Shown: positions 38,482-55,476 of the stretch, piece by piece
How positions within the stretch are numbered: the stretch's first letter is position 1
How the letters are laid out: every line of letters starts with the position of its first letter
Assembly (NCBI GenBank): GCA_038744685.1
Contig: JBCDMB010000020.1
Coordinates: forward strand, 1-60,267
Direction: 5' to 3'
DNA from: Verrucomicrobiota bacterium
Lineage (GTDB): Bacteria > Verrucomicrobiota > Verrucomicrobiia > Opitutales > Puniceicoccaceae
Length of the DNA stretch: 60,267 nucleotides
Notes under the pieces: model-generated
Told to the model about the DNA's origin: nothing
Database searches by the model: none
What the model saw: the letters and a program-made list of their open reading frames with translations, nothing else
Translations under genes and position numbers: made by a program

Positions 38482-41016
38482 ATGTCCGGGGGAATTCTCT
38501 GGAAGGCAGCTCTTTCGGTTGCCATCGTTGCATGGGCTTTCCTCAACCTTGTCCCTCTCGAGGACAGGGATTTTGACTCGTTTGTCATTGAAAGGGCGAA
38601 CCAGGAAGAGTTTTTGGGTTTGGTTGATCGGGCTCGGGAAGGGGTATCCGAAAACGTCTACCCTTCAGTCTACATTGGCCTGCGGGAGATCGCGAATGGT
38701 GAGGGAATCGATTTGGCTCAGTATTTTCCGGATCTACAGTTGGTCGATATTCGCAATCAGGAAAGACGGAATGAGGTCCTGCTGAGGGAGCTTTTGAACC
38801 AATCCAAGAGCAATTTAAGGCTGGGCCTGGATCTCGAGGGCGGGGTTTCTTTTACCCTCAGACTCGATGACTCTGCAGTCGAAGACGTCGGGCGATTTCA
38901 GCGCGAAGAGCAGCTAAAGCAGGTTGTCGAGGTGATGGAGAGGCGCGCAAACGCGCTTGGGTTAACGGAACCGTCCATCCGGCCGGTTTCCGATGATAGC
39001 GTTCAGATTCAACTTCCGGGAGTCTCGCTAGTCGAGGATCCGGAAGGTATCGAAGTTTTCAAAGCGCCAGCACGCCTCGAGTTTAGACTTGTCAACCGAA
39101 GCGTATTCCCAGGGGAGGGAACGCCAACCCCGCTCAACTATGAGCCGCTCTTTATGGAGCGGGAGAATGACGACGGTGAGCTAGAAGAGGTAGGCTACTT
39201 TGTGAAACGAGTCGCTGAGGCTACTGGGGCGATCGTTTCACGGGCCGGTGCCATGCCGAACGAGACCGGCGGGTTTGAGGTCTTTATGGACTTTACTTCG
39301 GATGGTAGCGACCGATTCGCTTCGGCGACGGAGAAGATTGTTGAAGCCAATCTGCAGGAGGGGGGAGTTGGCCAGTTGGCGATCGTTCTTGATGGAGAAC
39401 TGAAGAGTGCCCCAACGGTGCGGGAGGTGATCCGGGGAGGTGCGCGCATTTCGGGCCGGTTTTCCCAAAGGGAGGCGATCGAATTGGCGAACATCCTGAA
39501 CAACCCTCTCGAGTACGAGCTGACCGTCGATGAGATGAGCGAGGTTGGGCCTTCTCTAGCTGAGGATTCAAGGGCGAAGAGTGTTCTGGCCGCACAGATT
39601 GGGGCCGGTCTTGTGATCGCTTTCATGATTTTCTGGTATGGACTGGGCGGTATCGTTGCAGTGCTTTCTATTGGCGCGAATGTGCTTATTGTGTTGGGTG
39701 TTCTTGCGAGTCTGGGAGCTACCCTGACGCTTCCGGGGGTTGCCGCTTTAGTACTCACGGTCGGCATGGCAGTCGACGCGAACATTTTGATTTTTGAACG
39801 AGTTCGGGAAGAGTTGAGACTCGGGAAAAGTCCGAAAAACGCGTTGATCGGAGGTTATGACAAAGCGTTTTCGACCATTGTAGATGCAAACGTAACGACT
39901 TTGATCACCGCTGCGATTCTCATTTGGTTGGGAACGGGTCCCGTGAAAGGTTTCGGGGTCACGCTGGCGATCGGCATTTGTGCCTCTGTATTTTGTGCTT
40001 TAGTGGTCAGCCGTTTTCTTCTGGAGACTCTCGTTTTCAAGGCAGGTGTGAAGAAGATTCTCGGATGGGGGTTGCCGGGGCCATTTTCGGTGGACTTCCT
40101 GCGCTTTCGTAAGCCTGCGTTCCTCATCTCATGGATCATCGTCGGTTGCGGTGTGTTCGCCATTTGGTCTCACTGGGATCGTCTTTTCGGGATCGACTTT
40201 GTGGGCGGAGACGAGATTACGGTGGCTTTTGAAGAACGCCTTCCAGTCACGGGAATTGAGGGGGTGGCATCCGATGGTGGATTTGGTGAAGTTTCGTCGG
40301 TCTATCAAGTGAGCTTGGCTGACGGATCTGAGACCCTTGCAATACAGACGGAGGTCGGCAAAGGAATGGAGTTTTACGAAGCACTTGAGACCGCTTTTCC
40401 GGATTCAGGACTCTCATTCGAAGGACAGACGAGCATCGGTGCTGCAGTGAGTGAGCAGATCCAGAGGAATGCGATTATCTCGGTCGTGGTGGCTTTGGTT
40501 GGGATCTTGCTCTACATCGCGTTGCGCTTTGAGGTGGGCTACGGAGTCGGTGCGGTAGTCGCGACGATTCACGACGTGCTGATGACGATAGGAATTTTCG
40601 TCCTTGCAGATGGTCAATTCACCGCACCGATGATTGCTGCCATCCTCATGATCGTGGGATATTCCATCAACGATACGATTGTAGTGTTTGATAGAATCCG
40701 CGAAGAGTTGGACCTGAATCCGACCCACACCTTGAAGCGGGTGGTCAATCTTGCGATCAACCTCACTCTCGGCCGCTCGATTCTTACAAGTGTGACTACC
40801 TTTATGGCAGCTCTTGCGCTCTACATCGCCGGAGCAGGGATCATCGTTGACTTTGCATTCGTTTTCCTGATCGGAATCGTGACCGGAACCTTTTCGTCAA
40901 TCTACATCGCAAGCCCGATCTTCTTCTGGTGGCACAAAGGCGACCGGAAACATGTGGAAGACCGAGAACTAACGCCTAAGTACGACTGGCAGACTGGAGC
41001 TTCGGAGAAAACGTAG
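38482..41016 (+). CDS. secDF: Fused protein-export membrane protein SecD-SecF
   Basis: Single 844-residue chain joining SecD and SecF. The SecD half has an N-terminal helix, the P1 domain beginning near LRLGLDLEGGVSFTLRL (about 112-128), and six helices ending near residue 525. The SecF half starts with another helix and FGIDFVGGDEITV (about 570), and continues to a C-terminal helical bundle. Proton-driven pulling on translocating proteins is its known role. A GTG lies directly before the ATG (38479). It forms an operon with yajC. Fused SecDF occurs in many Bacteroidetes and Verrucomicrobia. Confidence 0.94.
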   Translation: MSGGILWKAALSVAIVAWAFLNLVPLEDRDFDSFVIERANQEEFLGLVDRAREGVSENVYPSVYIGLREIANGEGIDLAQYFPDLQLVDIRNQERRNEVLLRELLNQSKSNLRLGLDLEGGVSFTLRLDDSAVEDVGRFQREEQLKQVVEVMERRANALGLTEPSIRPVSDDSVQIQLPGVSLVEDPEGIEVFKAPARLEFRLVNRSVFPGEGTPTPLNYEPLFMERENDDGELEEVGYFVKRVAEATGAIVSRAGAMPNETGGFEVFMDFTSDGSDRFASATEKIVEANLQEGGVGQLAIVLDGELKSAPTVREVIRGGARISGRFSQREAIELANILNNPLEYELTVDEMSEVGPSLAEDSRAKSVLAAQIGAGLVIAFMIFWYGLGGIVAVLSIGANVLIVLGVLASLGATLTLPGVAALVLTVGMAVDANILIFERVREELRLGKSPKNALIGGYDKAFSTIVDANVTTLITAAILIWLGTGPVKGFGVTLAIGICASVFCALVVSRFLLETLVFKAGVKKILGWGLPGPFSVDFLRFRKPAFLISWIIVGCGVFAIWSHWDRLFGIDFVGGDEITVAFEERLPVTGIEGVASDGGFGEVSSVYQVSLADGSETLAIQTEVGKGMEFYEALETAFPDSGLSFEGQTSIGAAVSEQIQRNAIISVVVALVGILLYIALRFEVGYGVGAVVATIHDVLMTIGIFVLADGQFTAPMIAAILMIVGYSINDTIVVFDRIREELDLNPTHTLKRVVNLAINLTLGRSILTSVTTFMAALALYIAGAGIIVDFAFVFLIGIVTGTFSSIYIASPIFFWWHKGDRKHVEDRELTPKYDWQTGASEKT

Positions 41017-41019
41017 TCT

Positions 41020-41820
41020 TTATTGCTCTTGGGTCAGTCCTGGTTCGGGTATTTCAAATTTCATGAAGACCGGACGGTGGTCGCTGACGTAGCTGCGCAC
41101 CGTTTGGCAGGCGTTGCACTCCATTGGCTGAGGAAGAAAAATGAAGTCAATGCACTTCACGGGACTGTGAGCAGGAAAGGAGCGGGCTTTCTTGGGGTAG
41201 AGCTCATACTCATGGTGGCTCTTCATGTAGCCAAAAAGCTGAGCAACCGCGTCGCGTCTCATGGCTGCTCTGGAATTAAAATCACCGCAGATGATTGGGC
41301 GATGGATGAGCGGATCTCCTGGGGAATCGAGCTCTTTGTGCAAGAACCGGATCACCTGCTCCACCTGTTCCAATCGTTTCACACGGGACCGGAAATCCAA
41401 ATGCAGGTTGAGGACAGAGACTAGACCCTCTGGAAACTCTATTCTCGCAAAGACAAAACCTTTCTCGCCAAGCTTTTGTTTTCCAAATGGCACCGTCTTT
41501 GCCTCTCGAATAGGATACCGTGACAAGATTGCGTTGCCATAGGCCAGTTGCTTCGAGCCTTCACGGCGATTGTGGACACCGAGGTAAGAGTAAGGAAGGG
41601 ATTCCTTGTTCTGTATCTCTTGAAGAAGATTGATGTTTCCGTTCCAATACGACGCCTCGTCGACCTCTTGCAGGCAGACAATATCAGGATGGAAGCGGGA
41701 GAGGAGGCGGGTGATTCTCTCTAATTGTCTAAGTATACCCGTTGGCGAATGAAATCCCTGATAGAGAGAAAGACCACGCCCGTGGGCGATGTTGAAAGTG
41801 ATCAGTTTGCGTTCGGACAT
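41020..41820 (-). CDS. Endonuclease/exonuclease/phosphatase family protein
   Basis: A 266-residue EEP-fold hydrolase. Motifs: ITFNIAHGRG, LQEVDEASYW (metal glutamate), NLHLDFRSR, CGDFNSRAA (catalytic Asp/Asn), CIDFIFL and SDHRPVFMKF (general base histidine). These are the standard active-site residues of Mg-dependent DNases and phosphodiesterases such as Nocturnin, ExoIII and sphingomyelinases. There is no signal peptide, so a cytosolic DNA, RNA or inositol-phosphate enzyme is possible; the substrate is not deducible. Its stop is three bases from the secDF stop. Confidence 0.88.
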   Translation of the reverse strand: MSERKLITFNIAHGRGLSLYQGFHSPTGILRQLERITRLLSRFHPDIVCLQEVDEASYWNGNINLLQEIQNKESLPYSYLGVHNRREGSKQLAYGNAILSRYPIREAKTVPFGKQKLGEKGFVFARIEFPEGLVSVLNLHLDFRSRVKRLEQVEQVIRFLHKELDSPGDPLIHRPIICGDFNSRAAMRRDAVAQLFGYMKSHHEYELYPKKARSFPAHSPVKCIDFIFLPQPMECNACQTVRSYVSDHRPVFMKFEIPEPGLTQEQ

Positions 41821-41932
41821 TCAGGGATAGGGCGAAGTAGGGAGGAAAAGTAAATGATGCCCTACGCTCAAGGATAGAGCGGAAAAGATTGACGGGATCA
41901 GGTTCAATTCATGTATGAAGAGAGAATTCAAC

Positions 41933-42478
41933 ATGCCCATCTACGAGTTCTATTGTCCAAAAAACAACACCGTTTACAGTTTCCTGAGTCAGCGATCTAT
42001 TTCCGGTGAAGAAATCCCGCGTTGTCCTGCGGATTCCCGTTTCAAGATGGAGCGACTGGTCTCGGGTTTTTCGGTGACGGGTCGCCACGCTGAGAAGGAG
42101 GCCGGCGATGGTCTCGGGGATATGGACGACTCGCGCATGGAAGCGGCGATGGCGGAGCTGGAGTCCGAGATGTCGGGTATGGATGAGGAAAATCCCGATC
42201 CACGGCAGATGGGGCGGCTGATGAGGAGGATGTCCGAGCTTACAGGAGAGTCTCTGGATGGGCAGATGGAAGAGATGGTCCGCAAAATGGAAGAGGGTCA
42301 GGACATGGAGGCTCTGGAGGAAGAGTTTGGCGATGCGATGGATGATGAAGAGGTCGGCGCTGAAGAAGGCGGCGACGAGCCGAGTGGGAATGATGCCTTG
42401 CGCAAGCTTATGAGAAATTACCGTGACCGTGGTCCCCGCAAAGATCCAGTTTTATACGACTGGCGGGACTACACTTGA
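41933..42478 (+). CDS. FmdB-like protein with partial zinc ribbon
   Basis: A 181-residue protein beginning MPIYEFYCPKNNTVYSFLSQ, continuing with EIPRCPADSRFKMERLVSGFS. It is FmdB-like at the N-terminus, but only the first cysteine of each CxxC pair is kept (CPKN, CPAD), so zinc binding by four cysteines is lost. The rest is very acidic and Met/Glu-rich (about residues 50-155), predicted helical and largely disordered. ATG 41933 gives the true family N-terminus; 41915 adds six residues. TTGACG at 41888-41893 might belong to its promoter. Unknown role; compare the cysteine-free homologue at 8554. Confidence 0.7.
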   Translation: MPIYEFYCPKNNTVYSFLSQRSISGEEIPRCPADSRFKMERLVSGFSVTGRHAEKEAGDGLGDMDDSRMEAAMAELESEMSGMDEENPDPRQMGRLMRRMSELTGESLDGQMEEMVRKMEEGQDMEALEEEFGDAMDDEEVGAEEGGDEPSGNDALRKLMRNYRDRGPRKDPVLYDWRDYT

Positions 42479-42496
42479 GGTCGGACTTTCTCTTGG

Positions 42497-42542
42497 AGTG
42501 CGAGCGACAATCATCTCTGAAAGGGAAGTCGCTGCGAGCACT
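42497..42542. terminator. Hairpin between convergent FmdB-like and transglutaminase genes
   Basis: agtgc (42497-42501) pairs with gcact (42538-42542) and agcgac (42503-42508) with gtcgct (42528-42533), with a 19-base loop. The left arm shares agtgcgagcga with the 6763 hairpin region (as its complement). No T tract. Likely a bidirectional end stem or a member of a repeat family. Confidence 0.4.
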
Positions 42543-42572
42543 TTTCAGAAAGCGGAAGAACCGTGAAGTGCT

Positions 42573-43427
42573 TTACACTTTCGCTACATTGACTTCGACG
42601 GAGAGAGTTGGACTGGCGTAAGAAGTCCCGGTGAATCCACCGGATACAGGAGGAACGGATTCGGGGTGCCGGTGAACTGCAGTGGCGATGTGCGCTGATC
42701 CCGTAACAAGACCGCTGGTGTTGTCAAACCCGATCCAGCCGGCTCCGGGAAGGTATATTTCGGACCATGCGTGAGTAGCGCCGTGCTGCTCAGCGCCGGG
42801 GTTATAGAGGTAGCCACTCACGAAGCGGGCAGCTAGACCAAGGTAGCGACAGGCTTCAATAAATAGCGCGGCAAAGTCACGGCAGCTCCCCGATCCCCGG
42901 GTGAGTGTGGTTGCCGGTGACTGAACTCCGGGCTCCTCTCTCATTTCGTAAGAGAAGGCAGCGACTATTTCTTTAGCCATCTGGTCCAGCAGGACATAGG
43001 TCTCGATGGCTTGTCCTGGTATCCAAAATTGGGATACCCAGGGCTTCAGGTGTTTGCTATCATTGGGCCAGGTATGAGTCCGGTAGGCGAGCAGGTCCAA
43101 TCTCTCTTCTGGCTCGAAGGCAAATGGGAAGGTAACCGCTCGATCATCGACAACAAAATCCAGCGGTTGGGTCGCGTAGTGTTCGATGACTACTTCGCTT
43201 TCGATCCGTAAACAATCTGTAGGCTCGAGTTCGGAAAGAACGCCAGTGGAGTTTCCGTAGATGTCGCGGTACCACTTTACCGTGTGGTTCGGAGTTACCC
43301 GCAGTTGAGAGGACTCGATCCGAATATCATGACCCTCACGGGGACGAAGAAGCAGGGTGTGTTCGGAAAGCTGGACCGATTCGTTGAAATGGTACTCGGT
43401 TAGGTGGAAGATTCGGATTCTGTCCAT
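42573..43427 (-). CDS. Transglutaminase-like cysteine protease family protein
   Basis: A 284-residue protein of the transglutaminase/protease-like superfamily (bacterial two-domain type). The N-terminal half is a beta domain (FHLTEYHFNESV, LLLRPREGHD, NHTVKWYRDIYGNS) and the C-terminal half holds the catalytic triad: Cys in GSGSCRDFA (about residue 180), His in ATHAWSEIYLPGAGW and Asp in FDNTSG. These proteins may crosslink or cleave peptides; the substrate is unknown. It appears complete and cytosolic; related genes are often beside circularly permuted ATP-grasp proteins, but not here. Confidence 0.9.
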   Translation of the reverse strand: MDRIRIFHLTEYHFNESVQLSEHTLLLRPREGHDIRIESSQLRVTPNHTVKWYRDIYGNSTGVLSELEPTDCLRIESEVVIEHYATQPLDFVVDDRAVTFPFAFEPEERLDLLAYRTHTWPNDSKHLKPWVSQFWIPGQAIETYVLLDQMAKEIVAAFSYEMREEPGVQSPATTLTRGSGSCRDFAALFIEACRYLGLAARFVSGYLYNPGAEQHGATHAWSEIYLPGAGWIGFDNTSGLVTGSAHIATAVHRHPESVPPVSGGFTGTSYASPTLSVEVNVAKV

Positions 43428-43468
43428 AATAGGTAAGGGCTGATGGTTAGATGAGATTCGTTGATCGT

Positions 43469-43690
43469 CTATTCGTAGAGGTGATGCGCTTCCGTGTTTC
43501 GCTGATAGCGGACAGCATAAGGGCAGACCACGATAATGCTAAGAAGAGAACCTGGAAAGAAGAACTTGGTGGCGATTAAGTAAAGAGAGAGAAAGTCTAG
43601 TTTCGAAAGAACGATGAAATTGATCGCAAGTCCAAGCAATGAACCAGCGCGAACGCTGGCGAAAATGGACTTAGATTGACTTGCAAAATA
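43469..43690 (-). pseudogene. Decayed small membrane-protein gene (candidate)
   Basis: On the minus strand, two frames joined by one frameshift near 43585 read like one small membrane protein: first SIFASVRAGSLLGLAINFIV, then YLIATKFFFPGSLLSIIVVC and PYAVRYQRNTEAHHLYE before a stop at 43469-43471. No start codon precedes the first part. The hydrophobic then basic pattern is protein-like, so this may be a recently broken gene, or chance. It fills most of the 431-base gap 43428-43858; the rest holds a strong hairpin (43707-43740) and no other gene. Confidence 0.35.
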
Positions 43691-43706
43691 GCAGTAGCGA
43701 GGTTGT

Positions 43707-43740
43707 GGAGTGTTAGCGAGGGCTACTTCGTTAACACTCC
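43707..43740. repeat. Strong hairpin upstream of the pilus-like locus
   Basis: ggagtgttagcgag (43707-43720) pairs with ttcgttaacactcc (43727-43740) over 14 positions, two of them G-T, around the six-base loop ggctac. It lies 119 bases before the first gene of the secretin locus. It may end transcripts, be a leader structure for the locus, or be a REP-like element; there is no T run on either side. Confidence 0.6.
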
Positions 43741-43858
43741 GATACAGAAGATCGGGTGGAGATCGGATCGTCAGGACCGTTTTCCTTGAGAAAATGGTTT
43801 TGCAGGAGAGCAGGAAAAGTCTTGCACCACTGGCTTCGGTTGTTCGTTATTAGAGCAG

Positions 43859-44482
43859 ATGTCCCGTGCATTAACCCCTCTAGCCCTCTTCCTTCTACTC
43901 TCATCATTTCCGGCATTCCTGTCTGCGCAGGAGGCACCTGAAATCAAGGTCACGAACGTTCGGTTTGATCGAGTTGGCAACGATTGGATTGTTCCAACGA
44001 TCCAAATTGAAGCTGGTAAGAATCCTTCGCCTGACGCGAGAGACCGCGATTTTTTGGACGACGTTCTTTTTACGATATACGTCTGCTTTGAAGTCGATGC
44101 TCCCGAAGGCGGTAACCAATACTCGTTTTATCGCTCCACGGTGCGTATCATTTCCCTGGAAAGCTCAAAGCGTTACTCCATGAAGTTCTATCTTCCAGGG
44201 GTGGTGCGGGATCGTGACGACCTGAAAGTGGATCCGTTCGCATGGTTGATAGAGATGGAAGCAGGGGGCCAGAAGGTGGCTCCGGCAGCCGACCAAGCTG
44301 GCGGGAATATCCAAGTCTCACCGGAAGGCTTTGCAAACTTTCTCTCGAAAGCGAATTCCGAAGGCGCGGTTAATGATGGAATACTTCTACCTATCTATCT
44401 CGCGCCGATTTTTATCGTCAACGAGTCGAGGCCAAACCTTCGGGACGTGCCTTCTTTCTACCGATTCGAGCCTGATAATTGA
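43859..44482 (+). CDS. Amuc_1102-like pilus-system protein
   Basis: A 207-residue exported protein and first gene of the secretin locus. Signal peptide to about residue 23 (MSRALTPLALFLLL ... LSAQ). The mature part is all-beta: APEIKVTNVRFDRVGNDW, TIYVCFEVDA, RSTVRIISLESSKRYSMKFYLPG. Position and fold impression match Amuc_1102 of Akkermansia, an immunoglobulin-like protein encoded with a PilM/secretin set. I identify it by context and general sequence character, not by alignment. The next gene begins after 60 bases. Confidence 0.7.
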   Translation: MSRALTPLALFLLLSSFPAFLSAQEAPEIKVTNVRFDRVGNDWIVPTIQIEAGKNPSPDARDRDFLDDVLFTIYVCFEVDAPEGGNQYSFYRSTVRIISLESSKRYSMKFYLPGVVRDRDDLKVDPFAWLIEMEAGGQKVAPAADQAGGNIQVSPEGFANFLSKANSEGAVNDGILLPIYLAPIFIVNESRPNLRDVPSFYRFEPDN

Positions 44483-44542
44483 ACCGGGTAATTCGATCCT
44501 TGATCCACAGTATTCGGTAGTCCTATATCGACGGTTCCCTGT

Positions 44543-46213
44543 ATGAGTTCTTCCCAAATTACCATCCTTAACTGCGGGGCAAGCCAGTTCGCGTTCGGCG
44601 TTTTTTCCTTAGATGGAAACGCCCCCACGTTGGAGCGAATGGTCACCCGGGATTTGTCTTATGACTTTTCTGAAGAAGATCAGTGGCTGAGTGCCACCCT
44701 CGGTGCACTGCGGGAAGCAACCAGTGAAGACAAGATTTCTGGAGAAGTTCAGGTTATTCTTCCTGGGTTTCTGCTCCTCACAAAGACGTTGCGGATTGCG
44801 CATGTAGAGGGAGGAAAGCAGGCACAGATGATTGCCTACGAAGCGCAGCAGAGCATTCCCTACCAATTGTCCGACCTCAACTGGAGTTTCCAGGTTCTTT
44901 CTGACGATGGGATTGAGACTGAGGTTCTATTCATTGGGATCCGGTCAGAGATCTGCCAGCGATTCTGCGACGAGATTTCCAAACTGGGATTTCAGACAGT
45001 ATCGGTAAACGCGTCTACCATTCTAGACTACAACGCGTTTCAGCTGGCCTATCCTGACGAATCGGAAAATGCACTGGTGATCAACATTGGTGCCCGCGCC
45101 TCCAATTTAACGTTCGTTCAAGAGTCAGGTTTCTTCGTAAGAAATATCAATCTCGGAGGAAACGCTCTGACTCAGGGCCTTGCAGACGGATTGGGTAAGA
45201 GCTTCGCTGAGGCTGAGAAAATAAAGGTCAACTACTTCGTCTCCGAGCACACGGACCATTCGTCGACCGAGATCATTGACTCAGCTTCGATGACTTTTAT
45301 GCGGAAGTTGTCCCAAGAGGTGACGCGTTCTATCGTAAACTTCCGGCAACAAAAGAAGGGTGGTGCACCTAAGAAGATCTATCTTACGGGCCGGTCAGCT
45401 CTGATTCCGGGACTGACAGAGTTCCTTACAGAATCACAGCGGGTTGAGGTCGCGTTTTTCCAGCCCGGACATCAGATCGAGCTTGGTGCAGAGGCGAATC
45501 TGGCCGCAGATTCGATGGAGATTTTCCAAGCGTCAGAGCTCATCGGAGAGGCTGCTAAGGAAAAGGTTGAGAATGGCGTGGGAGTCGATCTCCTCCCCGA
45601 GGAGCTCCGGAAGGAGATTAGCTTCAAGAAAAAGCGCCCGTGGATCGTTGCAGCTGCAGCTCTACTGGCAGTATCCCCCCTGCCGTTTATTGTGCAGGCG
45701 AAACAGGAGTATGCGGTTTACAACGATGCTGCAGAACGGGTTCGGAGTCAGTTGCCCGCGCGGCAGGGAGAGTTGGCTAAGATCGAAGCTTTGATCGAAG
45801 AGATCGACGCTGCTAAGGTAGAGGTGGATCGATTCGATGATTTGGTAAACTCTAAATCGAACTGGATCCTGTTCTTTTCCGAGCTGCAATCGGCTCTTTT
45901 TGACATCGGTGACGTGTGGCTGGACGAGCTTGTCGTCAACCGAACCGGGAGTGGAAACAACATTCAGTTCGAGTTGACCGTTGACGGTCGACTGCTTGTT
46001 CGCGATCCGGACTCTGATCGCGTGGTCGGAATGGCCGAGATTGATGAGACTCTTCTTTCCGAACGGATACGAACGCTCTCCGACGTGTTCCTGGCGTCTC
46101 CTTTTATCTCTGAACGTTTATCCCTCCGGATCGATTTCCAATCAATTCAGGAAGGACAGCCGCTGCTTCCATTCGAGTTTACCTTTGCGATTGAGCCCCA
46201 ACGGGCCTTGTAG
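44543..46213 (+). CDS. PilM-like ATPase fused to PilN-like part (Amuc_1101-like)
   Basis: A 556-residue protein with an actin-like PilM/FtsA-fold N-terminal region (about 1-345: LNCGASQFAFGVF, FIGIRSEICQRFC, VINIGARASNLTFV, NLGGNALTQGLADGLG, IYLTGRSALIPGL), one membrane helix (about 365-387, RPWIVAAAALLAVSPLPFIV), and a periplasmic PilN-like coiled-coil and ferredoxin-like tail. In classical type IV pili these are separate proteins; here they are one chain, as in Akkermansia Amuc_1101. It would link the cytosolic side of the machine to the periplasmic subunits encoded next. Confidence 0.82.
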   Translation: MSSSQITILNCGASQFAFGVFSLDGNAPTLERMVTRDLSYDFSEEDQWLSATLGALREATSEDKISGEVQVILPGFLLLTKTLRIAHVEGGKQAQMIAYEAQQSIPYQLSDLNWSFQVLSDDGIETEVLFIGIRSEICQRFCDEISKLGFQTVSVNASTILDYNAFQLAYPDESENALVINIGARASNLTFVQESGFFVRNINLGGNALTQGLADGLGKSFAEAEKIKVNYFVSEHTDHSSTEIIDSASMTFMRKLSQEVTRSIVNFRQQKKGGAPKKIYLTGRSALIPGLTEFLTESQRVEVAFFQPGHQIELGAEANLAADSMEIFQASELIGEAAKEKVENGVGVDLLPEELRKEISFKKKRPWIVAAAALLAVSPLPFIVQAKQEYAVYNDAAERVRSQLPARQGELAKIEALIEEIDAAKVEVDRFDDLVNSKSNWILFFSELQSALFDIGDVWLDELVVNRTGSGNNIQFELTVDGRLLVRDPDSDRVVGMAEIDETLLSERIRTLSDVFLASPFISERLSLRIDFQSIQEGQPLLPFEFTFAIEPQRAL

Positions 46214-46215
46214 AT

Positions 46216-47247
46216 ATGGCCTTCTTTAAACGATACCCGATCTTCTGCATCACCTTGTTGGTTTTGCTTCTCGTTTTTGGCTGCGGGATCTATCTGGCCA
46301 TTGGTGAAAGTGGCAAGCTTGCTCAGGCTATGGACAGGTATGATTCTGACGTGCGACAGATTGAACAAGTCTCTCGCGGAGCGTTGTATGATGAGGAAAC
46401 TGGGGCGCGGATAACACCCACCTCTGACAATACGGCGATACTCGAGGCAAGGCTCTTCGAAGTAAACGAGGATTTGGTTCAGATTCGCGACGACATGCTG
46501 GCCCGGTCTGAAAACATTTTGGTGCCACCTGCAGACGAGTTCACTTTTTTGCCGCGACTCCAGTCCTACATCTCAAGAATGAGGTCTCTCGCCGAAGATG
46601 ATGTAGGACTGCAGCCGGACGAGGCGTTTGGCTTTGCGCGATACGCACGGATCGGGGATCAGCCACCAATCGACAAGATCCCTCTTCTTGATCATCAGCG
46701 TCAGGTTCTGGAGTACATTCTTAGGCAGCTAATAGCCTCCCAGCCGGAAGCCATTTTATCCGTGGAGCGTGAAGAGGTTGAGCGGGTTCAGCCGGTGGAC
46801 GGCTCGCAGGCAAATCAAGGGAATCAGGATCCCGAAGATGATGTTTTTACGATCGAAGAACTGGTCACTGCACGATACAACGAGTTTATCGACACCTTTG
46901 CATTTCGCCTCGTCTTCACGGGTCAAACCGACGTGCTGAGGAATTTTATCAATCGGCTAGCCGATTTTGAGTTACCGCTCATTGTAAGAAGTATCGAGGT
47001 CCGCCCTGCTGAAGAAGACGATGTCCCAGAAGAGGAAGAAGCGGCGAATGAAGATGATAATGATCCGCTTGCAGCATTGTTCGGAACCTCTTTTGCCGAA
47101 GAGGAGGAAGAGGAAGTAGAAGAGTCAGTGCCCGAAGATGATCGGGAGCCCGTCATCACCGAAACGCGGTCTAAATTTACGATTGTAATCGAGTTCGTTG
47201 AGCTGGAAATCGACATGGACGACGACGAAACGGAGGCCGGAGCGTGA
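46216..47247 (+). CDS. Amuc_1100-like pilus-system membrane protein
   Basis: A 343-residue protein with a short N-terminus, one membrane helix (about 8-29) and a periplasmic region. The layout is coiled coil (about 35-125), a PilO-like alpha/beta segment (VTARYNEFIDTFAFRLVFTG), then acidic insertions (EEDDVPEEEEAANEDDND; EEEEEEVEESVPEDD) before the final strand KFTIVIEFVELEI. Its place, directly after the PilM-PilN fusion (two bases between genes), matches Amuc_1100 of Akkermansia. The acidic stretches are an unusual addition. The GTGA overlap with the next gene couples their translation. Confidence 0.78.
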   Translation: MAFFKRYPIFCITLLVLLLVFGCGIYLAIGESGKLAQAMDRYDSDVRQIEQVSRGALYDEETGARITPTSDNTAILEARLFEVNEDLVQIRDDMLARSENILVPPADEFTFLPRLQSYISRMRSLAEDDVGLQPDEAFGFARYARIGDQPPIDKIPLLDHQRQVLEYILRQLIASQPEAILSVEREEVERVQPVDGSQANQGNQDPEDDVFTIEELVTARYNEFIDTFAFRLVFTGQTDVLRNFINRLADFELPLIVRSIEVRPAEEDDVPEEEEAANEDDNDPLAALFGTSFAEEEEEEVEESVPEDDREPVITETRSKFTIVIEFVELEIDMDDDETEAGA

Positions 47248-48164
47248 AGTATCTGGAGAAAATAGTCTTCTTTATTGTTCTCCTGCTGGTCGCTGGGGTT
47301 GCTGCTTGGGTCTTTATTGGTGGCCCAGGAGAACGACCCAGTGAGGGAGACGTTCCAGCCATCAATAGGGGTTTTGAGTTAAAAGCTTATCAGAGAATGT
47401 TTATCCCTGATGATGCAGAGTGGCCTGAACCTGAATTCCAAGATGCGGAGGGCAAATGGCTCTATCGCGTATTTACGCCACCAAAGCTTTACATTGTAGA
47501 CGGAGCGTTCGATCCAGAGCTTCCGTTCGTTGGGCCACCTCCACCGGAGCCCGATCCCCCACCACCATTTGGTGTTCGTCTGGTGGAGATCGACCGAAAG
47601 CTTTATCGGCTTCAGCTCTCCGCTGTTTTTGAGCAAGACATGGACAACATTGATTCTGCCATTCTTAGCTTCGAAAATGTGTACGCGACGGAGACTCAGC
47701 TTCCAACGATCAGGGCAAGAAAAGAGGAGGTGAATGAAGAATTTAATTTCCGGGTTGATGATATTGAGAGAATTGAAATCCGTGCGGAAAACGGAGGCCT
47801 CGAAATCGTCCACACTGTAACCGTGACGGATCTTGATAGCGGGAGAATCGTCCTCTTGTCAGATAGCGAGCCACTTTTTGAGGAGGGAGTGACCCTGATA
47901 TTTGCTTCAACTGTAGACACTGGAGAAGAGGCAATTGTTCGTAATGTAGGGGAGACGTTCGTGATGAACGATGCAACCTACACGGTATCAGAGATTAACC
48001 TTGAACGCTCAACGGTGGAGCTAGTAAAAGAGGCTGAATATCTCGATGTTCCCGAACGCGAAACTCTCAACCCTCAACCCACTTCTCCAGTCACTGTAGA
48101 GCCTGCTCCTGAGCCAACCCCGTCAGAAGATGAGGGTTCGGGGATCGACTTCTTCTTCAACTAA
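47244..48164 (+). CDS. Amuc_1099-like pilus-system protein (PilP-like position)
   Basis: A 306-residue protein with an N-terminal membrane helix (about 5-27), and a periplasmic part with a conspicuous proline stretch (VGPPPPEPDPPPPFGVRLV, about 96-112). A beta-rich middle follows (LYRLQLSAVF, GLEIVHTVTVTDLDSGRIVLL) and a Pro/Glu-rich tail. It begins with GTG in the overlap GTGA with the previous gene. The position before the secretin is that of PilP, which links the inner-membrane complex to the secretin; here it matches Amuc_1099. Sequence resemblance to PilP itself is not obvious. Confidence 0.72.
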   Translation: MKYLEKIVFFIVLLLVAGVAAWVFIGGPGERPSEGDVPAINRGFELKAYQRMFIPDDAEWPEPEFQDAEGKWLYRVFTPPKLYIVDGAFDPELPFVGPPPPEPDPPPPFGVRLVEIDRKLYRLQLSAVFEQDMDNIDSAILSFENVYATETQLPTIRARKEEVNEEFNFRVDDIERIEIRAENGGLEIVHTVTVTDLDSGRIVLLSDSEPLFEEGVTLIFASTVDTGEEAIVRNVGETFVMNDATYTVSEINLERSTVELVKEAEYLDVPERETLNPQPTSPVTVEPAPEPTPSEDEGSGIDFFFN

Positions 48165-48210
48165 CCAGACTATCCTCCCTGAATCCACATCCCTGAGACA
48201 AATTTTATTG

Positions 48211-51200
48211 ATGAAAACCCTGCATAGCCTTCCTCGAATAATTATTACGTCTGTTGCCTTGTCTGTTGGGGCATTGAGTCTTCCTTCCGCCGCATTAAGT
48301 GCGGAAGTGAATCCTTCCGAAAAGGTCGGGTTAATGGCCTCGGCACTTCGGCTCAAGGATCAGGGCGAGTACGCTCAGGCTTTCGAGAGGGTGATGATTC
48401 TGCGGGAAGTTTCTCCGGAAGATCCGTCGGTGAATCGCCTCTACGAGGAACTAGTCGATTTGATGGATGCAGAAGGTATCCCTTTTGCAGTGATTGACAC
48501 CGATATGGAGGACTCCATGGAGGAGTCTCCGGGAACTGACTCGGTCGGGGATGATGTATTGGTCAACGTTCCCGAACCGGAGGGAATGAATTCCGCAGCG
48601 ACGATTGAAGATGCTAAGGACCTTGCCGCTGCAGGAGAATACCTTCAAGCCATTGCCCTATTAAATAATGTCCAGGCAGAGAGTGACGATCCTGGTGCTC
48701 AAGCTGAGGCTGGAGATTTGATCGCTGCCTACATCATCGAGCAAGAGGCAGGAACCTTGGAAACAGCGATGGAGAATTCCGAGGATGACATGGAGAGAGC
48801 GGAAGATTTGGCATCCGAAGGACGTTACGCCGCTGCCTACAGCCTTTTGGATGCGGCAATCACGCGCCTTCCGCTAAACACCGGCACGGAGGACTTGATC
48901 GAAAAACTGGAGGATACGCGGCGAGAAATTCTCTTAGATCAAGCTGAGGAGCTGGCAGACAAAGGGGAAGGAAACGAGGCCCTTGAAGCATTTCAGCGCT
49001 ACCAAAGAGACCCAAGCAGTAGAAAGTCTCTTCAGAATAAGGCGAAAGAGGTCGAGGTAATGGTCCAGAATCCATACGCGTACAACATCCGTGATCTAAG
49101 CCCTGGTTTTGTCGCCGAGTTTCAGCGCGTTCAGGATTTGCTGGTTCGGGGGAGAGCTCAGTTTGTGAATGGGGATATTGATGGGGCACGGCAGACTTTT
49201 GCGCTCGTCGAAACGATCAGCCCGGAAAACGTCGAAGCCAAAGCGTTTCTGTATGAAATCGCAAAACGGGCGAATGAAGAGGGTTACCTAGACCGGACTA
49301 AGACCAGAGAGGAAATGCTGAACCAGGTGAGCCGTGGATGGCAGCAGCCTAGAGTTTATATCGAGGATGTTGAACCGGGACCGGGACCGGGAGAAGGAAA
49401 TCTAGTTCTAGAGAAACTGGAGGCAATCATCATACCGCGGGTCACCTTCCGCGACACTAGTCTTCCTCGCGCGGTTCAGTCTCTGTCGGAAATGTCTGAA
49501 GAGTTTGACAGGTCGGCAAGTGCAGACGGAACCCGCGGAGTGAACATGGTTGTGACTGGAACTGGGGGGACCGACAGCTTGGTGAATTTTTCGGTTCGCA
49601 ACCTCTCGCTTCTTCGCATTCTAGACATCGTCGCTGACCAAACCGGGTTCCAGTGGGATGTTGTGGATCAGGTAGTGGTGTTCAATCCAAGCGAAGCGGC
49701 TGGTGGAAACAACCGCCTTCAACGGGCCATCATTCCGATCTCCAAGGGAACTTTGGACCTTATTCTGGACATTCAATCCGCGGCTGGCGGTGGCGGTGGC
49801 GGTGGAATCGCTGATGATCCGTTCGCTGCGCCTACGGGTCCAACCGGCCCGGCAACGGATGACCGTCAAGATGCGCTAGTGAATTTCTTCGAAGCTTCTG
49901 GTATCAACTTCCGTGATATTCAAGGTGCCAGTATTGTAAACCGAGGCTCGCGGCTGCTTGTCAACCAGACCTCTCGTAATATTGAGGAGATTCGCCAGAC
50001 CTTGCGCGAACTCGACATTACCGACCAAGTTGAGATTGAAGCGAAATTTATGGAGGTTCTTCAAGGGAACTTGGACGAACTAGCGTTTCAATGGGATATC
50101 GCGAACCAGGGACAGGCCCAGATCAATCGGACGCAGGCGACGACGACCAGTTCTACCTTCGGCGACAATAGGGATTTTACTAGCACCACTACTAACGACT
50201 TTAATGAGACTACTGTTGGTCCGCCTGCGACCTCCAGTTTTACGAACCTTTTCGGCACCAATTCTTCTTCCACGGTTGGCAATAACTCTTCAAGCACTTC
50301 GACGACTACGTCCACTGTATCACCGGTTTTTGATTCGTTTGGAAATCCGGCGACCACGCCAAGCCGAGGATTCGAAAATAACGCAACATCACTCGCGACG
50401 ATCTTCGGAACCAATTCTCAAACTGCAATTGGAACCATAACGACAGGAGGTGTTCCTGAGAACTTTAATGTTTCACCGGGTGATCCTCCAAACGCCCTTG
50501 ATCTCGGAGCTGATATTATCAGCAACTTTTTTACAAGTGGGGTGATCGGGAACTTTGATATCAATCTCTTGGTTCGTGCGGTCTCCCGGCTGGAGGGGTC
50601 CGATCTCCTTTCAGCCCCGCGTGTGACCGTTATGTCAGGAAAATCAGCAAATATCGTGGTTGCTCAGGAGTTTATCTACCCAACTTCATACGGCGAGCCG
50701 ACGGTTACTGCGGACTCTGGAGGAGGTAGCTCCATAACCGGTGGCGGCGGTGGCGCTGTTGCGGTCGCATCAGGTGTGCCGGAAGATTTTGAAACTCGTA
50801 ACTTAGGGGTTGAATTAACCGTTACTCCCACAGTCGAACCTAATGATAAGATCAATTTGGCGCTCCAACCTCGAGTTACTGAGTTCGAAGGATACGTATC
50901 CTATGGAGGTCCGAACATCGCGCTCACCAGTTTTTCGTCAGTCCAATCTCCTTCTGGTTATTTTCAACCTATTTTCTCAACCCGCACGGTGGAGACGGAA
51001 GTAACTGTTTTTGACGGCGCTACAGTTGTTCTCGGCGGTCTTACGAGAGAAGAGGTGAAGGAGTACAACGAAAAGATCCCGGTTCTTGGGGATATTCCTT
51101 TGATCGGCAGAATTTTCCGTTCGGAAGGTGAAACGAATCAAAAACTCAACTTGATCATCTTTGTCACAGCAAATCTGATCAGCCCAGGGGGTTCGCCGGC

Positions 51201-51309
51201 GGCACAGTCTTTCGCTGGCACAGAATCCAACTCGCTCTTCCAGAACCCAACTCTGATCAGCCCCGGAGGAATCTTGTCAAGAGACAAGTCTACCGCTACA
51301 GAGGACTAA
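48211..51309 (+). CDS. Type IV pilus/type II secretion secretin (Amuc_1098-like)
   Basis: Outer-membrane ring of the locus, about 1032 residues. ATG 48211 gives the signal peptide (MKTLHSLPRIIITSVALSVG). Order: a long TPR-rich part (about 40-400: EYAQAFERVMILREVSPEDP, AEDLASEGRYAAAYSLLDAA), N domains (VTFRDTSLPRAVQSLSEMS; NIEEIRQTLRELDITDQVEIEAKFMEV), a Ser/Thr/Asn-rich insert (about 645-745), and the secretin barrel (SDLLSAPRVTVMSGKSANIV about 795, then GATVVLGGLTREEVKEYNEKIPVLGDIPLIGRIFR in pieces, near 945). A Gly tract (AAGGGGGGGIADDP) lies at about 525. The frame from 48130 overlaps the previous gene and is rejected. Confidence 0.9.
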   Translation: MKTLHSLPRIIITSVALSVGALSLPSAALSAEVNPSEKVGLMASALRLKDQGEYAQAFERVMILREVSPEDPSVNRLYEELVDLMDAEGIPFAVIDTDMEDSMEESPGTDSVGDDVLVNVPEPEGMNSAATIEDAKDLAAAGEYLQAIALLNNVQAESDDPGAQAEAGDLIAAYIIEQEAGTLETAMENSEDDMERAEDLASEGRYAAAYSLLDAAITRLPLNTGTEDLIEKLEDTRREILLDQAEELADKGEGNEALEAFQRYQRDPSSRKSLQNKAKEVEVMVQNPYAYNIRDLSPGFVAEFQRVQDLLVRGRAQFVNGDIDGARQTFALVETISPENVEAKAFLYEIAKRANEEGYLDRTKTREEMLNQVSRGWQQPRVYIEDVEPGPGPGEGNLVLEKLEAIIIPRVTFRDTSLPRAVQSLSEMSEEFDRSASADGTRGVNMVVTGTGGTDSLVNFSVRNLSLLRILDIVADQTGFQWDVVDQVVVFNPSEAAGGNNRLQRAIIPISKGTLDLILDIQSAAGGGGGGGIADDPFAAPTGPTGPATDDRQDALVNFFEASGINFRDIQGASIVNRGSRLLVNQTSRNIEEIRQTLRELDITDQVEIEAKFMEVLQGNLDELAFQWDIANQGQAQINRTQATTTSSTFGDNRDFTSTTTNDFNETTVGPPATSSFTNLFGTNSSSTVGNNSSSTSTTTSTVSPVFDSFGNPATTPSRGFENNATSLATIFGTNSQTAIGTITTGGVPENFNVSPGDPPNALDLGADIISNFFTSGVIGNFDINLLVRAVSRLEGSDLLSAPRVTVMSGKSANIVVAQEFIYPTSYGEPTVTADSGGGSSITGGGGGAVAVASGVPEDFETRNLGVELTVTPTVEPNDKINLALQPRVTEFEGYVSYGGPNIALTSFSSVQSPSGYFQPIFSTRTVETEVTVFDGATVVLGGLTREEVKEYNEKIPVLGDIPLIGRIFRSEGETNQKLNLIIFVTANLISPGGSPAAQSFAGTESNSLFQNPTLISPGGILSRDKSTATED

Positions 51310-51486
51310 AATCCTCATCCTCAATACCTCTTGGGTCTAGTTGCTTAGTGAGCATGTTGAGGGAAAGAGAGTCCCCGAGAGAGAATACGAGAATCGTTCG
51401 GTCGTAAGACTTAAGGTTAGCCAGCTCTCTGCGGTTGAGGCACTTTGCGGTCGACCAACTAAGGGTGCCTTTGGTAATCTTTTAGG

Positions 51487-52815
51487 ATGAAGGTGGGCCG
51501 CAGGCTGTATTTTTATTTATCCGGTTGGCTTGCCAGTTTACTGGCTGCCTTTGGGGCGGGCTACTGGATGACCTCTACTCCGACGAGAACCGCAGATGAA
51601 TCGGTTATGAAACCTGGTGCTGTTCTGCAAGAGGATTGGGAACTTACGGGTTCAAAAGAGAGTTTTGAGGGTATGGATTCAGAAGAGCTACAAGCTCCCG
51701 TTGTGGTTGATTCTTTAGGTTCAGAAACCAATAGCTTGCAGGCAGTTTTAGCGGGAGCGGGAGCCCCTCTGGTATGGGAACAGGCGAGTTTGGAAGCCGG
51801 GCTACTGTCTTCGGAGGAGGCTAGGTCTTGGGTTGAGGCACTCCTCGAAACTCCTCAGGGTCCGCGCCGCGATGACCTCCTCCTTACACTCCTAGGAAGA
51901 GTAGCTTTAAAAGATCCACAGGTGGCAATGGCTTTGGCGAGTCAAATCACTTCCGTTACTTCAGAAGAACAGGCAAGGAGACGCATACTAGAGGTTTGGG
52001 GTGGGCACGATCCTGCGGCAGCACAGATGTGGCTCGAGGAGAATTCAGTTGGACTTCCAGGGCGCGTTCGTTCTGAAAGGCTTGAAGCTTGGATAGAGGG
52101 TTACGCCCGTTCGAACCCTAGTGCCGCTTTTGCTTATGCCAGTGCTCTTCCAGAGGGAAGCTCTCTGGAAACCCGCCTCAAACGGGAACTTGTCGAAGAA
52201 GTGATATCTTCTCAGGTCGCGAACGGTGACCTTGAACAAGTGGAGATTTGGCTTCAAACCCTCCCGGAAGGGCCGGTCCGCAGAGAAGCTCTGGAAGAGT
52301 TTTACTCAGAGTGGGCAGAGCAAGACCCTGTTCAGGCATCAGAACATTTTTTGCAGAACCGATCAGGAGATAGTGAACGGGTGGCTGCGGGGATTGTTCG
52401 TAACTGGGCAGAGTCTGATCCTGAAGCTGCATCGGATTTCGTTGCTGCTCTGGATACTTCTGATCCAGCTTTCGAAGTAGCGGTTTCCTCGTTAATCGAA
52501 AGATGGTCTCGATACGATCTGGAGGGTCCTGCTGAATGGTTGAATGAGCTCCCGCCCTCGCCAGAGATTGATCGTGCGGTAGCAGTCTATTCTGTCCGAG
52601 CGTCAAGGGAAGATCCCGCAGGAGCGATGTCATGGGCGGAGTCAATTGCTACTGAGCAGACCCGAAACCGGGTCATGCAGAGGGTGGCGTCTAGCTGGCA
52701 GGAAACAGATCCCTCTGGATTGGAAACTTACCTGCAACAGAGTGGCTTGGACGAATCAACGGCGAACCGTCTTCGTGAAGGAAGTAATGGAAACGATAGG
52801 AGGTTTCGTAATTGA
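51487..52815 (+). CDS. Membrane-anchored Trp/Asp-Pro helical-repeat protein
   Basis: A 442-residue protein with one N-terminal membrane helix (about 8-28) and a linker to about 75. Then about eight repeats of roughly 33-40 residues follow, each carrying W and DP plus small residues, as in VWGGHDPAAAQMWLEEN, WAEQDPVQASEHFLQN, WAESDPEAASDFVAAL and WQETDPSGLETYLQQ. Such repeats form helical solenoids, and similar proteins are abundant in Verrucomicrobia with unknown roles. It probably projects into the periplasm. Its last four bases overlap the tatC start (TTGA), so the two are co-translated. The 177 bases before it hold no recognisable gene. Confidence 0.75.
   Translation: MKVGRRLYFYLSGWLASLLAAFGAGYWMTSTPTRTADESVMKPGAVLQEDWELTGSKESFEGMDSEELQAPVVVDSLGSETNSLQAVLAGAGAPLVWEQASLEAGLLSSEEARSWVEALLETPQGPRRDDLLLTLLGRVALKDPQVAMALASQITSVTSEEQARRRILEVWGGHDPAAAQMWLEENSVGLPGRVRSERLEAWIEGYARSNPSAAFAYASALPEGSSLETRLKRELVEEVISSQVANGDLEQVEIWLQTLPEGPVRREALEEFYSEWAEQDPVQASEHFLQNRSGDSERVAAGIVRNWAESDPEAASDFVAALDTSDPAFEVAVSSLIERWSRYDLEGPAEWLNELPPSPEIDRAVAVYSVRASREDPAGAMSWAESIATEQTRNRVMQRVASSWQETDPSGLETYLQQSGLDESTANRLREGSNGNDRRFRN
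52798..52804 (+). promoter_or_regulatory. Strong ribosome-binding site of tatC
   Basis: AGGAGGT lies seven bases before the TTG at 52812-52814, inside the end of the preceding gene. It is one of the few near-consensus Shine-Dalgarno sequences in the window and decides the TTG start. Confidence 0.75.
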
Positions 52816-53675
52816 ACTCTTCCGAGGATAAGGAAGAGGAATCCGAAGAACGGCCATCTAGAAATATCATTCGCGGGGATGACGAGATGACTTTCCTCGA
52901 GCATCTCGAGGAACTGCGGTTCACCCTGGCACGCTGCATCGGAGCCTTCGCTGTAGGAGTAATCATCCTTGCATTTTTTCTTCCTTCGTTGACCGATTTT
53001 CTACGAATGCCCTTTGTTTGGGCTCAGGGTGCTAGCGATCCGGATATGCTGGAAGGGCTTTTCTCCCGCCGCCCAATGGGGGTATTTACTGTGATGTTGC
53101 AGGTGCTCTTCCTCGGAGGGCTTTCCTGTTCGTTGCCATTTATGCTATTCGCCCTCGCGCAGTTTGTAGCACCTGCCTTGACCGAAAAGGAGAAGGAAGT
53201 CCTCGTCCCAGCTTTAACAGTGGGGTTTTTCCTCTTTCTCCTCGGCGTTGCCTTCGCCTTCTTTGTCATTCTCCCCGCGGCTTTTCGGGTGTCGATCGCT
53301 CTCAACTCAATGTTGGGTCTCGAGCTTCTGTGGAGCGCATCCGAATACTACAGTTTAGTGGTCTGGCTTTGTGTATTGATGGGGGCGCTCTTTGAGTTTC
53401 CTGTAGTCTTGGTTCTCCTCGTTCACCTTGGGATTTTGACACCAGAAGCATTACGAGGCCAGCGGAAGCTGGTTTTCATCGGAATCCTGGTTCTTTCGGC
53501 GATTATCACCCCGACCGGAGACCCCATCACTCTCATGATCATGACCGGACCTCTCTACGGCCTCTATGAGATTGCAATATGGGTAGGATCCAAGTGGAAG
53601 AAAAAGCGGTCCAGCGATCTTGAAGAAGAAGAGGAGTTTGATGAGGACTATTTCGGCGAAGACGATCTCGATTAA
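52812..53675 (+). CDS. tatC: Sec-independent protein translocase subunit TatC
   Basis: Receptor subunit of the twin-arginine pathway. The 287-residue protein has an acidic N-terminus, then MTFLEHLEELRFTLARCIGAF (family N-terminal signature, about 26-46), six membrane helices, and the conserved FELPLVLVLL-like block (here FEFPVVLVLLVHLG, about 196), IITPTGDPITLMIMTGPLYGLYEI (about 236-258, in part). The C-terminus is acidic (LEEEEEFDEDYFGEDDLD). The start is TTG, with AGGAGGT 7 bases upstream. No tatA/tatB is adjacent. A 5-base stem with a three-base loop (53676-53688) follows. Confidence 0.93.
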   Translation: MNSSEDKEEESEERPSRNIIRGDDEMTFLEHLEELRFTLARCIGAFAVGVIILAFFLPSLTDFLRMPFVWAQGASDPDMLEGLFSRRPMGVFTVMLQVLFLGGLSCSLPFMLFALAQFVAPALTEKEKEVLVPALTVGFFLFLLGVAFAFFVILPAAFRVSIALNSMLGLELLWSASEYYSLVVWLCVLMGALFEFPVVLVLLVHLGILTPEALRGQRKLVFIGILVLSAIITPTGDPITLMIMTGPLYGLYEIAIWVGSKWKKKRSSDLEEEEEFDEDYFGEDDLD

Positions 53676-53734
53676 CCGTTTGGAACGGGGTTCGTATCAG
53701 AGAGTGGATTAGGCAAGACTTAACCCGAAGGGTA

Positions 53735-54265
53735 TTACGAACCATCTTCGTCCGGTGGCGGGTGCGGATGGATGTGTCCGTTGAAAATAGCTCGGTAGAT
53801 GTCGTTTTTAGGCTCGGGCAATTGTTCAATCTGGTAGCCGGCGTCCTTCACTGCATTTGGTCCGTATCGATAGGCCGCCGCTAAAAGTGGATAGTTGAAT
53901 GATTCTGCCTCAGTGAGAAGCTCTCTGCAGTGCACTAGATAAAGCATTGCGGTATTGAGGTTGGTTCTCCAGTCCCAAGCGCGGTTGAAAGAGATGTCGG
54001 TAACCGTCTCCCAAGCCATACCACTCATTTGGGTAATCCCTCGCGCTTTTCCGCTGTCCGCGTAGGCGTTAAACGAACTCTCTGCGAAGGCGATTGAGAA
54101 AACGAAACCGGGATCAAGCTGGTGATCAGCGGCACGATCCTGAACAAAGTCCCATACATTACCTGCCGGAATCATCTTTTTCTCAGGGCGTGAACACCCA
54201 GCTATAAACAAGAGGGCTAGAGAGAAAAGCAGAGATTTGTGTAGAGCGGATTGCGGATCATTCAT
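53735..54265 (-). CDS. Lytic transglycosylase lipoprotein
   Basis: A 176-residue putative lipoprotein. The signal peptide ends with the lipobox LLFIAGC (about 20-26). The SLT-type goose-lysozyme fold is recognised by FSIAFAESSFNAYADSGKARGITQMS (catalytic glutamate in FAESSFN), NLNTAMLYLV and LLAAAYRYGPNAV. It cuts glycan strands of peptidoglycan. ATG 54265 is chosen because longer frames lack a lipobox. It follows the AsmA-like gene by 37 bases on the same strand. A role in placing an envelope machine such as the secretin above is possible but unproven. Confidence 0.85.
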   Translation of the reverse strand: MNDPQSALHKSLLFSLALLFIAGCSRPEKKMIPAGNVWDFVQDRAADHQLDPGFVFSIAFAESSFNAYADSGKARGITQMSGMAWETVTDISFNRAWDWRTNLNTAMLYLVHCRELLTEAESFNYPLLAAAYRYGPNAVKDAGYQIEQLPEPKNDIYRAIFNGHIHPHPPPDEDGS

Positions 54266-54302
54266 TGCAGTTGCGTCGGCTAGTACAAACCTTTCTAGAT
54301 TC

Positions 54303-55451
54303 TTAAAAGGATAGGCTCTCAGCGAGTCCGAAAATCCCAGGAAGATGAAATGGTTCGTAGGATGTGCGGATTGTCTCTGCGGGGGTGAAGACAAGTCCTC
54401 CGGCCTTATCCACTCGTAGACGGCCTGGAATCTCTCGTTCGTTTTCATCCAGAATCATTCTTGCAGAAGCGTCATCGACCCATGCGCTGGCTTCGACTCG
54501 GAACAGTTTGGATTCGTTCACGGATACATCGATACGAATCGGTCCATCTGCACGGCGGTTGATCTCGATTTGGAAGAATGTCGTCTCATCTGCGAGAAGG
54601 CCTTCGAGGATCGCGCGATTCTCTCGATGAGAGGAGTTGGGAAAGACAGTAGCACCGGAAAAAGCGAGCTCCCGTAGCTCTTCTCCTCCAAAATCAGCAC
54701 TCTGCTGCGCCGCGGTGATCAGCCGGATCCCCTCACTGAACCGCCACGACGAATCAAGGACAAAGCTACCTTCAAACTGAATTTGCCGAAACGGACGAAG
54801 TAGAGATCGAAATGGCTCTTCTCCAAAGAATGCAAAGAAGAAGGGATTGTCCTGCCTGAGGTAGGTACCGTCGAACGATCCACCGCTTTCGAGAGAGTCC
54901 CATCCGAGGCGGCAAAACCCTTCAAGGGTAAGCCCGCCTCCCTCAACGTGGGCAGTTGATTCGAGTGCGCCTGCTCGGTTCCGAATAGCAGATACGTCCA
55001 GCTCAAGAGTGGCTGGAAAGATGGGAATCTTTAGTTTGGCATTTGGAAAATCGAGCTTGTCGACGGGTAGTCGGTCAGGGCGTAGTTGTTCGCTCCATCT
55101 GGAAAAGTCTATCTCCTGAAAACGATCCGGAGGGTCCGCAAATTCGATTCGGGCATCGACGATTCGGAGGAGATTGATCGTTCCGTCTGCGAGAAGATCT
55201 AGCCACGGGCTTTCTGCTCGCGCAATTGGTGCGATGAGAGTGAGGGGACCGTCACTGATTCGGAGAGGCTGAATGCGAACTGAGTCCGAGCGCAGGTCCC
55301 AACTAGCCTCGCTCCCGGCAAGTGGAGAAAGAACTCTCCAGGGAAGCGAACAACGCCAGATTGCAAGACCGATAAGGCCAACGAGGAGGACGGCTGAAAC
55401 GTAAAGGAGTGTGGAGGCTCCTTGTTGATTAGCTTTCGCACCGTTCACCAT
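54303..55451 (-). CDS. Membrane-anchored AsmA-like envelope protein (tentative)
   Basis: A 382-residue protein with one N-terminal membrane helix (about 15-37) and a periplasmic part dominated by beta strands of alternating polar/hydrophobic residues (IRISDG, LTLIAPIARA, NLLRIVDARIEFADPP, LELDVSAIRN, HVEGGGLTLEGF). It resembles AsmA-type proteins in overall pattern, including DARIEFADPPDRF near residue 100, but no diagnostic domain is certain. It leads into the lytic transglycosylase gene. A perfect 16-base palindrome lies ten bases before its start. Confidence 0.6.
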   Translation of the reverse strand: MVNGAKANQQGASTLLYVSAVLLVGLIGLAIWRCSLPWRVLSPLAGSEASWDLRSDSVRIQPLRISDGPLTLIAPIARAESPWLDLLADGTINLLRIVDARIEFADPPDRFQEIDFSRWSEQLRPDRLPVDKLDFPNAKLKIPIFPATLELDVSAIRNRAGALESTAHVEGGGLTLEGFCRLGWDSLESGGSFDGTYLRQDNPFFFAFFGEEPFRSLLRPFRQIQFEGSFVLDSSWRFSEGIRLITAAQQSADFGGEELRELAFSGATVFPNSSHRENRAILEGLLADETTFFQIEINRRADGPIRIDVSVNESKLFRVEASAWVDDASARMILDENEREIPGRLRVDKAGGLVFTPAETIRTSYEPFHLPGIFGLAESLSF

Positions 55452-55460
55452 GGGTTTGTA

Positions 55461-55476
55461 ATACCGAATTCGGTAT
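55461..55476. promoter_or_regulatory. Perfect 16-base palindrome before the AsmA-like gene
   Basis: ATACCGAATTCGGTAT is fully palindromic and lies ten bases upstream of the start at 55451, where an operator would be expected. A perfect 16-mer is expected about once by chance in 60 kb, so location is the only support. Confidence 0.35.

Follow-up and report, generated by a model that had tools for sequence, protein, structure and literature searches.

The closest described relatives of the locus treated here are found in Akkermansia. A 2023 review treated Amuc_1098 to Amuc_1102 as a cluster for type IV pili in which Amuc_1098 is the PilQ (PMC10688800), and the Amuc_1100 protein has been reported on the surface or the pilus (PMC5332112, PMC10688800). 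In 2026 the locus, under the name MUL2, and its synteny were described in aquatic Akkermansiaceae, and it was said to be often conserved in Verrucomicrobiales; in Akkermansiaceae, MUL2 was linked to the use of mucin and the capture of glycans (PMC13174399, citing Davey 2023). Opitutales are unmentioned in the main text of that paper. The locus analysed here belongs to an uncultured Opitutales bacterium and lies on a contig of 60,267 nucleotides (C20), which as a whole is called the window. Homologies, gene content, a shared gene neighbour, and joint presence and loss make it very probable that the products of this locus form the alignment complex and the pore in the outer membrane for the type IVa pilus of this organism, with the motor, prepilin peptidase and pilins encoded on other contigs.

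A first-pass annotation of the window had described the locus as a complete pilus-like secretin machine lacking motor and pilins, with a function undescribed outside Akkermansia. The latter statement is outdated by the 2026 description of MUL2. The gene order that it gave, Amuc_1102-1101-1100-1099-1098, is borne out by five open reading frames on the forward strand, and so is the homology to the Akkermansia products: by sequence families for the 1101, 1100 and 1098 positions, and by predicted fold for the 1102 position. The spacing along the locus is 60 bases, then 2 bases, then overlaps. The true start of the last gene, the secretin, is probably about 27 codons downstream of the open reading frame's start, near 48211, where MKTLHSLPRIIITSVALSVGALSLPSAALSA would form a signal peptide; this later start would leave a gap of about 46 bases ahead of the secretin.

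The second gene (44543-46213, 556 residues) encodes a fusion of PilM and PilN that belongs with the Amuc_1101 family. Its product matches the Pfam model of PilM (PF11104) at 4e-20, far above chance and with the kinship to FtsA and actin, and the NCBIfam model of Amuc_1101 (NF045709) at 3.9e-80. A profile of the family finds PilM of the structure 3jc8 in the PDB at 8.8e-45, and its second part finds PilN of the same structure (3jc8_Na) at 6e-4. The actin-like PilM takes up about residues 1-340 and is followed by VDLLP at about residues 348-352, a membrane helix and a periplasmic PilN part. The INLLP-like motif of PilN is kept at the joint of the two proteins as VDLLP or VNLLP, and its L and P are invariant or nearly so in relatives.

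The fifth gene (48130-51309, 1059 residues) encodes a PilQ-type secretin of the Amuc_1098 family with N-terminal TPR repeats. The secretin model PF00263 matches at 2.5e-35, far above chance. Among NCBIfam families the best is Amuc_1098 (NF042912, 1.2e-115), with GspD second, and the top PDB match of the family profile is the type IV pilus secretin PilQ (6w6m, 1.9e-34). TPR is present in 23 of 28 secretin relatives and STN in 17, and AMIN is absent among the families listed for them. A tandem pair of secretin genes after the 1099-position gene was seen in three lineages.

No Pfam family was found for the first, third and fourth products, and the first-pass annotation had expected them to resemble Amuc_1102, Amuc_1100 and Amuc_1099 in structure. 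The third product (46216-47247, 343 residues), a bitopic inner-membrane protein in the PilO position, agrees with this: it matches the Amuc_1100 family (NF038287) at 9.9e-18, and its family profile matches the solved Amuc_1100 structure 6lad at 2.3e-9. So does the first product (43859-44482, 207 residues), an exported beta-sandwich protein. An AlphaFold model of it, built from 44 relatives (predicted local distance difference test, pLDDT, 91.5), has the Amuc_1102 crystal structure 7dsz as its best Foldseek match (E 3.4e-6), and VIA aligns the two over 162 residues with Z 15.3 and a root-mean-square deviation of 3.3 Å, the next row having Z 7.9.

The fourth product (47244-48164, 306 residues) is likened to Amuc_1099 by position and length only. 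It has an N-terminal membrane helix, a proline-rich linker and beta domains (AlphaFold pLDDT 87.4). In VIA the model matches best with PilP from the type IVa pilus machine of Myxococcus (3jc8_Pa; 70 residues, 24% identity), and the next row has Z 4.6. As the Z of 6.9 lies below the tool's caution level of 8, this protein is likely rather than proven to be PilP. PilP was ranked first by VIA only; with Foldseek alone, no match reached an E below 0.001, and the profile gave no sequence-family match and nothing meaningful against PDB sequences.

The NCBIfam models for Amuc_1101, Amuc_1100 and Amuc_1098 were built on Akkermansia proteins, and all three matches fall under the family cut-offs. Thus the products are divergent relatives rather than close members of the Amuc families.

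The window holds no PilB, PilT, PilC or pilin gene, as first reported, but the view that their absence is a property of the machine is not supported. Searches across the contigs of the genome found nine PilB/PilT-type ATPases, three PilC/GspF proteins, three secretins, one PilM, 23 pilin-like (N-methyl) genes and, on contig C11, a prepilin peptidase (A24). Contig C39 carries one type IVa motor operon, coaE-rho-pilB-pilT-pilB-pilC, whose PilT scores 437.6 against a curated PilT/PilU family cut-off of 319.1. This operon has no secretin, no PilM and no PilMNOPQ set of its own, and the only PilM of the genome sits in the window. The window locus is therefore the sole PilMNOPQ set found for the C39 motor. 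Among the features by which a type IVa system is recognised, this genome has PilM with the PilN motif, a PilQ-type secretin, an extension ATPase, PilC and PilT, pilins and a prepilin peptidase.

Motor and pilin genes were likewise found in a genome of 2,664,102 bases, the size of the A. muciniphila MucT genome (the A. muciniphila-sized genome). Two pilB genes and pilC lie there in one operon, and the gene directly after pilC has a classical prepilin signal (GFTLMEILVVMVIIVV). Two PilT-type genes are paired at another site, and the genome also has a prepilin peptidase and seven N-methyl genes. The motor genes of Akkermansia are unmentioned in the Akkermansia papers covered, though someone may have reported them.

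Evidence that the locus and the motor belong together is provided by a shared gene neighbour and by their joint presence and loss. Outside Opitutales, 13 of 20 loci have the coaE-rho pair (counted where coaE or rho was found) behind the secretin, among them that of the A. muciniphila-sized genome. In Opitutales, each of the 12 motor loci read has rho ahead of the pilB motor operon, and in none of the loci read does coaE-rho come after the secretin. An orthologue of PilC, taken as a match of at least 340 bits and with six ambiguous genomes left out, is present in 47 of 48 genomes with PilM-N versus 5 of 40 without it (Fisher p ~5e-18, not corrected for kinship). Moreover, five families each hold members with both PilC and PilM-N and members with neither. 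As to the composition of the motor operon, pilT is missing from it in five Verrucomicrobiales loci and kept in most Opitutales.

Three genomes have broken motors, and PilM-N is lacking in all of them. In genome G310 (one contig), coaE-rho-pilB is fused straight onto the last quarter of pilC (positions 9891-14297), pilT and the second pilB are gone, and the reading frame of pilB breaks close to its start; the junction is a deletion scar. In G281, pilC is in pieces in different frames. In G121 (positions 2739-9498), two insertions of about 1 and 1.2 kb split pilB, and the second pilB is broken as well. A frame break by itself might be a sequencing error; the deletion in G310 and the insertions in G121 are less easily explained in this way.

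Several observations weigh against assigning the locus to a type IVa pilus driven from C39. For the C39 PilC, GspF models give a slightly higher score than PilC models do, and the PilB and GspE scores of the two C39 PilB proteins are about equal. No pilin gene adjoins the motor in this genome to mark out the major pilin among the 23 pilin-like genes. The Pfam models of PilO and PilP are unmatched by the proteins in those positions, and Pfam scans of all members of both families gave scattered weak matches only. One genome (G295) has PilM-N without an orthologous PilC, and four (G108, G133, G197 and G248) have PilC with no PilM-N found; most of these five are fragmented assemblies. Finally, none of the genomes examined has the motor genes next to the alignment genes, which makes the link between them indirect. 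No genome that unites pilM-pilQ, coaE-rho and the motor in a single run turned up in the loci read, although one was sought, and a single ancestral cluster is therefore something that we only infer.

An alternative is that the locus encodes a pilus-derived complex for glycan capture or uptake, needing neither motor nor pilins and acting as a static channel and scaffold, as the first-pass annotation held and as MUL2 has in part been read. The locus stands alone in the genome with no motor genes beside it, and such a device would fit the tie of MUL2 to mucin use and to the capture of glycans, a role known for Akkermansiaceae only (PMC13174399). What makes it improbable is that the same genome has a type IVa motor that lacks a PilMNOPQ set of its own and is gained or lost jointly with the locus, and that pilB, pilC, pilT, a pilin and a prepilin peptidase are also present in the A. 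muciniphila-sized genome. Even harder to credit is a filament made by the locus itself, in which the Amuc_1102-type protein would be a fibre subunit resembling archaeal-type pilins. This protein has an ordinary cleavable Sec signal peptide ending in LSAQ, the prepilin cleavage motif occurs in 0 of 44 relatives, and a classical pilin gene directly follows pilC in the A. muciniphila-sized genome. It was rejected as a pilin for want of the motif; given that motif's absence and the ordinary signal, it probably accompanies the pore as an exported accessory.

The locus could also be a type II secretion operon under unusual gene names, given that a secretin is common to both systems and that GspD is the second-best secretin family here. 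Against this, PilM-N stands in the place of GspL, Amuc_1098 ranks first among the secretin families and PilQ among the PDB matches, and the genes expected of type II secretion are elsewhere: contigs C22 and C23 carry GspD-E-F-type operons with their own secretins and pseudopilin-like genes, and the C22 system looks complete. With PilM present, these operons separate and no GspE or GspF in the window, the type II reading was rejected as very unlikely, in agreement with the first-pass annotation. The operon on C23 (positions 40001-55828) resembles type II secretion and combines pilin-like genes, a PilT-like ATPase, GspE, GspF and a secretin, which is unusual for a secretion operon.

The conservation in Verrucomicrobiota that was first proposed is well supported. 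Of 289 genomes sampled from across the phylum, about 259 (~90%) have a strong match to the Amuc_1101 family; this is our own count of strong matches, and the 279 genomes found at E 0.001 include cross-matches to FtsA. Within the limits of gene calling, nearly all of the 40 further loci read (20 from Opitutales and 20 others) keep the five-gene order, as do most of 80 named loci. The named related loci are from Opitutales or their relatives (Coraliomargarita, Cerasicoccus, Puniceicoccaceae and Opitutaceae), the nearest with 76% identity in PilM-N. In one genome of the same family as the window's (G314), the locus is split, with 1102-PilMN on one strand and PilO-1099-secretin divergent on the other. 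Export genes flank the window locus on both sides: YajC and a SecD-SecF fusion upstream (37987-41016), and TatC downstream (52812-53675). TatC and the gene at 51487 remain beside the locus within the same genus.

From these components, the working of a type IVa pilus in this organism can be proposed. The PilM half of the fusion would lie on the cytoplasmic side of the inner membrane, carrying its own PilN. PilN, the Amuc_1100-type PilO and the Amuc_1099-type PilP would cross the periplasm to the PilQ secretin with its TPR repeats and dock there, with the Amuc_1102-type protein as an exported accessory rather than a pilin. Power would come from the C39 motor (PilB, PilT, PilB and PilC), and the pilus would extend and retract, most likely to attach to particles and glycans. 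The fibre may serve attachment, glycan capture, DNA uptake or movement; what would favour glycan capture among these is only the analogy with MUL2. A bolder proposal, which we hold to be possible but doubtful, is that this is a type IVa build specific to the phylum, with PilM-N fused, the TPR domain of the secretin serving as a built-in pilotin and an Amuc_1102-type accessory, and that it pulls captured glycans to the cell for uptake. If so, Amuc_1100 would be an inner-membrane PilO and not a surface fibre protein. An inner-membrane location would then be expected, in conflict with the reported surface or pilus location, and this can be tested.

The locus is real, well conserved and ordinary in kind; what is new is the joining of the two halves of the machine and the extension to Opitutales. 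The Akkermansia papers covered treat the cluster as one 'pili-like' unit, for which a likely motor and a pilin can now be named. Whether Amuc_1100 is a surface pilus protein or an inner-membrane PilO, and whether MUL2 is a static capture device or a dynamic pilus, become directly testable. The range of the locus, so far Akkermansiaceae and Verrucomicrobiales, now takes in Opitutales and most of the phylum.

Compared with known systems, the locus resembles type II secretion in having a secretin and bitopic inner-membrane proteins, but it has no GspL, and a separate, complete-looking type II system is present on C22. With the type IVa PilMNOPQ genes of Myxococcus and Pseudomonas it shares the order of PilM, PilN and the O, P and Q positions, the INLLP-like motif of PilN, and motor genes at a separate site in the genome. 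It differs from them in the fusion of PilM and PilN, a TPR-bearing secretin without an AMIN match and an extra Amuc_1102-type gene, and its PilO and PilP are recognisable by position, fold or Amuc family only. The MUL2 locus of A. muciniphila and aquatic Akkermansiaceae has the same five genes in identical order, with family matches for 1101, 1100 and 1098, a predicted-fold match for 1102, and position and length for 1099. From MUL2 the window locus is set apart by its divergent sequences, below the NCBIfam cut-offs, and by its flanks: TPR and TatC genes stand beside it instead of coaE-rho, which here precedes the motor operon.
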